Below, piece by piece: positions 35,831 through 35,925 of a stretch of DNA of 64,000 bases. A model generated the notes under the pieces. It was given only the letters and a program-made list of their open reading frames with translations, was not told the DNA's origin and searched no databases. The translations under genes and the position numbers were made by a program. The stretch's first letter is position 1. The number at the start of each line of letters is the position of its first letter. Source of the DNA: Akkermansiaceae bacterium (GTDB lineage Bacteria; Verrucomicrobiota; Verrucomicrobiia; Verrucomicrobiales; Akkermansiaceae); NCBI GenBank assembly GCA_013041925.1, contig JABDRB010000012.1, forward strand, positions 186,001 through 250,000, written 5' to 3'.

Positions 35831-35925
35831 GGAGAGTGAAGCGTGCCTGGTGGCCGCCGCGGTTTTCAAAACCGTTGAATGGCTATAACGGTCATTGGTT
35901 GGTTCGATTCCTTCCCTCTCCGCCA
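35831..35925 (+). tRNA. selC: Selenocysteine tRNA (tRNA-Sec, anticodon UCA)
   Basis: 95 nt with encoded GCCA, the length of E. coli selC. The 5' GGAGAG pairs with CTCTCC. The D arm has six pairs (GCG/CGC and GCC/GGC around loop TGGT) with one bulged T, the anticodon loop TTTCAAA gives TCA, and a long variable arm AATGGC/GTCATT closes a TATAACG loop. The T loop is TTCGATT. Two oddities: the T stem GTTGG/CCTTC has two T-T mismatches, and acceptor pair 7 is T-C. Nucleotides 9-11 (AAG) could instead extend the acceptor helix by pairing with CTT. It decodes UGA with SelB and is charged through SelA; those genes are not in the window. Confidence 0.87.

Follow-up and report, generated by a model that had tools for sequence, protein, structure and literature searches.

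The 13-bp acceptor/T branch of the Escherichia coli selenocysteine tRNA (tRNA-Sec), which is of the 8/5 type, is an identity element for SelA and SelB and forms part of the exclusion of this tRNA from EF-Tu, while G73 and the long variable arm lead to its serylation by SerRS. The E. coli molecule carries the EF-Tu antideterminants C7-G66, G49·U65 and C50-G64, and affinity for EF-Tu is tuned by the pairs 49:65, 50:64 and 51:63 (PMC9976931, PMC11231383). A 7/5 type with a 12-bp branch has already been published for other bacterial groups. It was recognized by covariance in Epsilonproteobacteria (PMC4607533), and 12-bp tRNA-Sec are described in several further groups, among them Cloacimonetes, Gammaproteobacteria, Clostridiales and Spirochaetes; in most of these tRNAs an acceptor nucleotide is bulged, and in the Clostridiales the D stem contains a bulge (PMC5330540). 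The SelA of Aeromonas salmonicida accepts a 12-bp arm (PMC10778597). Verrucomicrobia are absent from the text of the Secmarker paper (PMC5330540), and a literature search for tRNA-Sec together with Verrucomicrobia returned nothing relevant and no 7/5 report for Verrucomicrobiota. Here we describe a selC gene from an Akkermansiaceae bacterium, located in a 64,000-nucleotide stretch of its genome (the window).

A single selC gene in a genome encoding the selenocysteine machinery

ARAGORN called a tRNA-Sec(TCA) spanning exactly positions 35831-35925 of the plus strand (95 nt, CCA encoded), and the Rfam covariance model RF01852 matched 35831-35921 at 56.4 bits, above its cut-off of 47. The first-pass annotation had named the gene selC from its letters and proposed scoring by a covariance model; both the call and the score bear it out. 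A score alone is insufficient to recognize tRNA-Sec in this phylum, where tRNA-Ser genes reach 50-56 bits against the same cut-off, but the gene also has the UCA anticodon, the 6-bp D stem with a 4-nt loop, the long variable arm and G73 that are expected of a bacterial tRNA-Sec and are found in the E. coli 8/5 molecule. Among the tRNA-Ser loci above the cut-off were L246-L253 and L255, so that score-only counts of tRNA-Sec are inflated in the phylum, and 9 of the 13 low-scoring extra RF01852 matches fetched from relatives were tRNA-Ser. Within the assembly (3.28 Mb, 98% complete, 33 contigs) the gene is the sole RF01852 match above the cut-off; each of ten weaker matches overlaps an ordinary tRNA found in a search with RF00005. 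A second intact selC, which would have cast doubt on this copy, was thus not seen.

The gene lies between those for an alpha-L-rhamnosidase and a glycosyltransferase, outside any sel operon. A consensus scan recognized neither a promoter nor a terminator for it, and a search for in-frame TGA codons in the window yielded no convincing selenoprotein candidate. Matches elsewhere in the genome identify SelA at 504 bits, SelB at 324 bits with its gene at a contig edge, and SelD at 370 bits. Against the structures of the Aquifex aeolicus enzyme, SelA aligns over residues 29-454 and is full length. The selD gene (L018:1531, G000:C21) has an in-frame UGA at the active site (motif CAGU-ASKL), making SelD itself a selenoprotein, and therefore the organism itself would need UGA to be read as selenocysteine. 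The 60 nt from this UGA fold into two small hairpins, at most a candidate SECIS.

The tRNA has a 12-bp branch of the 7/5 type

All parts of the tRNA lie on the plus strand. The acceptor 5′ strand GGAGAGU (nucleotides 1-7; 35831..35837) pairs standardly at 1-6 with 67-72 and places U7 opposite C66; it is followed by the linker G8-A-A (35838..35840), in which G8 could pair with C66 if U7 were bulged. The D arm (35841..35857) has a 6-bp stem, GCG(U)GCC / GGCCGC, with a bulged U at 35844 and the 4-nt loop UGGU. After one C comes the anticodon arm GCGGU-UUUCAAA-ACCGU (35859..35875), in which ARAGORN and direct reading place the anticodon UCA at 35866-35868, and then the long variable arm (35876..35897) of a class II tRNA, the element recognized by SerRS, as delimited by the RF01852 alignment and the fold. 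The T arm (35898..35914) consists of a 5-bp stem GUUGG / CCUUC, with U50·U64 and U51·U63 in tandem, and the loop UUCGAUU. The acceptor 3′ strand CCUCUCC (66-72; 35915..35921) has 7 nt, one fewer than in an 8/5 tRNA-Sec, and direct reading places the discriminator G73 and CCA at 35922..35925. The non-pairs correspond to window positions 35837·35915 (U7·C66), 35899·35913 (U50·U64) and 35900·35912 (U51·U63). Direct reading thus recovers everything listed at first pass: long variable arm, UCA anticodon, GCCA end, acceptor U·C, tandem T-stem U·U and bulged D-stem U.

Because only 12 nt separate the T loop from G73, the 13-bp branch of the canonical 8/5 type is not reached. We gathered selC genes from the genus, family, order, class and phylum, and after removal of the variable arm obtained 74 distinct 7/5 sequences, 55 from the order and 19 from outside it. 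Three of the order members fetched (L037, L055, L068) are odd copies with a changed 3′ end or small acceptor-strand insertions, and all the others were 7/5; the insertions in the 3′ acceptor strands of L068 and L055 (a CCCTCC-like duplication and one extra C) are perhaps assembly errors or signs of decaying copies.

The acceptor pairs 1:72 to 6:67 are standard in all 74 distinct 7/5 sequences, double changes included. The T-stem pair 49:65 is standard in 73 of them (G-C, C-G, A-U or G·U), and at least four lineages (f1.g14, f1.g10, f3, f14) show double changes there; 52:62 and 53:61 are standard throughout. Together these observations argue that the 5-bp T stem is real. In contrast, 7:66 is a non-pair (U·C, A·C or C·C) in 73 of the 74 and standard in one; it is never G-C, and position 7 is never G. 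A pair between 8 and 66 would be standard in 69 of the 74 and is broken in two independent groups. The 5′ half holds an extra nucleotide, with 8 nt and a 2-nt linker preceding the D stem where the 3′ strand has 7 nt, as is typical of most published 7/5 tRNA-Sec. A 6-bp D stem with one bulged nucleotide was present in 102 of 110 parsed 7/5 genes. Taken together, these observations assign this selC a 7/5 arm of 12 bp in which U7 is either mismatched or bulged.

This arrangement resembles the published 7/5 tRNA-Sec (Secmarker, Epsilonproteobacteria, Cloacimonetes) in its 7-nt acceptor 3′ strand, its 5-bp T stem and the usual single unpaired nucleotide on the 5′ side, but the extra nucleotide is at position 7 here rather than at 3a, 4a, 5a or 7a. 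Compared with the E. coli tRNA, the branch has one base pair fewer, and C7-G66, G49·U65 and C50-G64 are replaced by U7·C66, G49-C65 and U50·U64. The 8/5 tRNA-Sec of other Verrucomicrobiota families (L110-L113, L116, L118, L122, L139-L145, L147) have similar anticodon and D arms, in some cases including the D-stem bulge, but possess the 13-bp branch. The allo-tRNAs and the selC* tRNA-Cys (8/4 or 9/3) share the 12-bp branch and a tRNA-Sec-like D arm; their partitions were considered for this gene and are ruled out by the covariation of 49:65, that is, by a 5-bp T stem. Compensation for the lost acceptor pair by the D-stem bulge was also considered and is weakened by the presence of the bulge in 6 of 15 true 8/5 genes (9 of 18 less the three odd order copies, which had been mis-scored as 8/5).

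The first-pass suggestion of a divergent tRNA-Sec architecture is thus upheld in that the departure from the 8/5 rule is clade-wide, although the helix partition is not new, since 7/5 is known (PMC5330540, PMC4607533). The comparison with related selC genes that it proposed revealed relatives in the genus, family and order that lack a normal 8/5 arm and keep the same departures.

Mismatches in the T stem and acceptor are conserved across the order

U·U occupies 50·64 in 54 of the 55 distinct order sequences, which represent six families, but in only 1 of the 19 from outside the order, where the pair is standard in 17. At 51·63, U·U is found in 41 of the 55 order sequences, the remainder having G·U, G-C or C-G. 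As a control, 33 other distinct tRNAs of the same genome were inspected, none of which has a T-stem mismatch, and an acceptor mismatch appears in just one other tRNA, an initiator-type tRNA-Met. By simple arithmetic, the chance that three random non-pairs among 12 pairs all fall within the set 7:66, 49:65, 50:64 and 51:63 is 4/220, or about 2%. A DNA pattern search of GTDB genomes for the U·U/U·U signature returned 49 loci. Their titles all name Verrucomicrobiota, either at a higher rank (Verrucomicrobia(les), Verrucomicrobiia, Verrucomicrobiaceae or Akkermansiaceae) or by a member of the group (Rubritalea, Persicirhabdus). Among the bearers of the signature are two isolates, Rubritalea marina DSM 17716 and Persicirhabdus sediminis KCTC 22039, as well as one MAG labelled Akkermansia muciniphila. 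Because the mismatches recur in the genus and throughout the order, they are neither chance nor sequencing error nor decay.

Outside the order, 7/5 relatives often combine U7·C66 with a normally paired T stem (e.g. GUAGG/CCUAC), and 7·66 is the sole non-pair common to 7/5 tRNA-Sec within and beyond the order. Since the T stems outside the order are mostly well paired, U·U at 50:64 appears unnecessary for a working 7/5 tRNA-Sec. As judged from the compared genes, the new element is the order-wide retention of U50·U64 together with the exclusion of G from position 7; the order keeps U50·U64, and often U51·U63. Published 7/5 tRNA-Sec were compared from their text descriptions.

The arm type follows the SelA lineage

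Within the same class, 8/5 tRNA-Sec occur in families f7, f11, f16, f21, f24 and f61, and also make up most of the true matches at the phylum level, while many other families of the class have 7/5 tRNA-Sec. In a SelA tree of 43 rows, a branch with support 100/100 separates all 12 SelA from 8/5 genomes from the SelA of 7/5 genomes such as that studied here. The arm type follows this tree exactly, so that one change suffices. Families f7 and f24 hold both arm types, and there the placement of SelA matches the arm type. In families of the class other than that of the window, the 7/5 selC is often located within ~1-1.5 kb of selA. Because the arm follows the SelA tree, the families with both types match it and the loci often adjoin, selA and the arm type were probably inherited or transferred together; the best reading is that the short-arm tRNA-Sec has been co-inherited with its SelA.

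Each of the 35 class genomes that gave a strong selA match also has a true selC. One class-level genome (G513, 91% complete; L110) has an 8/5 selC, and the selA search there gave no strong match. A genome of family f7 (G357; 74% complete, 4% contaminated) contains both an 8/5 and a 7/5 selC and one SelA of each lineage (L116 and L259 versus L243 and L285), which may represent two complete selenocysteine systems or a mixed bin. In Akkermansiaceae bacterium UBA1506 (L107; L203, L225; DCQY01000027.1), two near-identical selC genes are separated by ~700 bp, and selA lies ~5 kb from one copy.

Alternative structures and origins

The first-pass annotation had offered another fold, with the acceptor extended to 11 bp and the T stem reduced to 2 bp, giving 13 coaxial pairs. 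In this gene GAAG (8-11) is indeed complementary to CUUC (62-65), and part of the alternative appears in the thermodynamic centroid when the sequence is folded by itself. However, the fold requires 13 nt between the T loop and G73, and 12 are present (CCTTCCCTCTCC); as CCUUCCCUCUCC is 12 nt, 13 pairs would therefore count one C twice. Among relatives, 10:63 is standard in just 8 of the 55 order sequences, 9:64 is standard in three of five distinct same-genus sequences and fails in the other two, and species with C49-G65 would have G8·G65. Jointly, 8:65, 9:64, 10:63 and 11:62 do no better than shuffled columns (937 of 1000 shuffles scored as high), and since such shuffles ignore the kinship of the sequences, the case against this fold rests on the independent double changes. 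As a conserved structure the 11 + 2 helix is refuted by the alignment, and it is very unlikely that this tRNA adopts it. Within the 7/5 partition, the choice between a U7·C66 mismatch with a 3-nt linker and a bulged U7 with G8-C66 as the seventh acceptor pair is evenly balanced. The bulge would fit the standard pairing of 8:66 in far more sequences than 7:66, the one double change (U8-A66 in L029, a sequence in which U7-A66 could form just as well) and the report that most 12-bp tRNA-Sec have bulged acceptor nucleotides (PMC5330540); on the other hand, G8 may be retained for tertiary reasons, and five sequences from two lineages have A8, C8 or U8 opposite C66 and would on this reading lack a seventh pair.

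Several mismatches in one gene, in an assembly of 33 contigs, might also suggest a degenerate pseudogene with another selC elsewhere. This is the least probable of the explanations, given the lack of any other above-cut-off match in a 98% complete genome, the same departures and conserved stems in all relatives, and the presence of selA, selB, selD and a UGA-containing selenoprotein gene. A more serious contender, though one we hold to be somewhat improbable, is that the T-stem U·U oppositions reflect near-neutral drift, tolerated since the tRNA no longer needs EF-Tu. The relatives with Watson-Crick T stems fit this idea, as neither state then seems essential, and a single family contains U·U, G·U and G-C at 51:63. 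Nevertheless, U·U persists at 50·64 across the six order families while the adjacent 49:65 makes compensated double changes, and the genome's other tRNAs are free of T-stem mismatches.

A proposed pathway for the short-arm tRNA

We hold, with a probability of roughly 0.85, that the product of this selC is a functional tRNA of the 7/5 type and the only selenocysteine tRNA of the organism; its role in selenocysteine insertion is strongly implied by gene content. Relative to an 8/5 tRNA with a bulged D stem, the 3′ half would be one nucleotide shorter and the 5′ half unshortened, leaving U7 either mismatched with C66 or bulged, in which case G8 would pair with C66. In the window's order, two T-stem U·U oppositions would have been added beside the still-paired 49:65. 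The tRNA would be serylated by SerRS and then converted by a SelA of the lineage matching its arm length, and SelB would deliver the selenocysteyl-tRNA to UGA codons such as that of selD.

The non-pairs 7:66, 50:64 and 51:63 overlap the pairs that tune EF-Tu binding. Without the 13-bp length, these non-Watson-Crick positions may weaken EF-Tu binding, such that selenocysteine would not be inserted at ordinary UGA codons. This antideterminant reading is plausible and is weakened by the well-paired 7/5 relatives outside the order. The fuller proposal that the three non-pairs constitute a second independent way of keeping selenocysteyl-tRNA off EF-Tu, replacing the 13-bp arm alongside a SelA adapted to the short arm, is possible but on balance doubtful.

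A whole order with a shorter arm, conserved mismatches at EF-Tu contacts and a matching SelA lineage offers a natural comparison for discrimination between SelB and EF-Tu, and the cultured strains bearing the signature (Rubritalea marina and Persicirhabdus sediminis) allow testing. Selenoprotein engineering can likewise profit from a SelA active on 12-bp arms, and uses that of Aeromonas salmonicida for this reason. Two SelA residues (L017 numbering) differ with arm type: residue 154 is Leu in 30 of 30 7/5 genomes and Thr in 12 of 12 8/5 genomes, and residue 150 is mostly Cys in the former and Asn in the latter. These differences may be lineage markers or adaptations to arm length.
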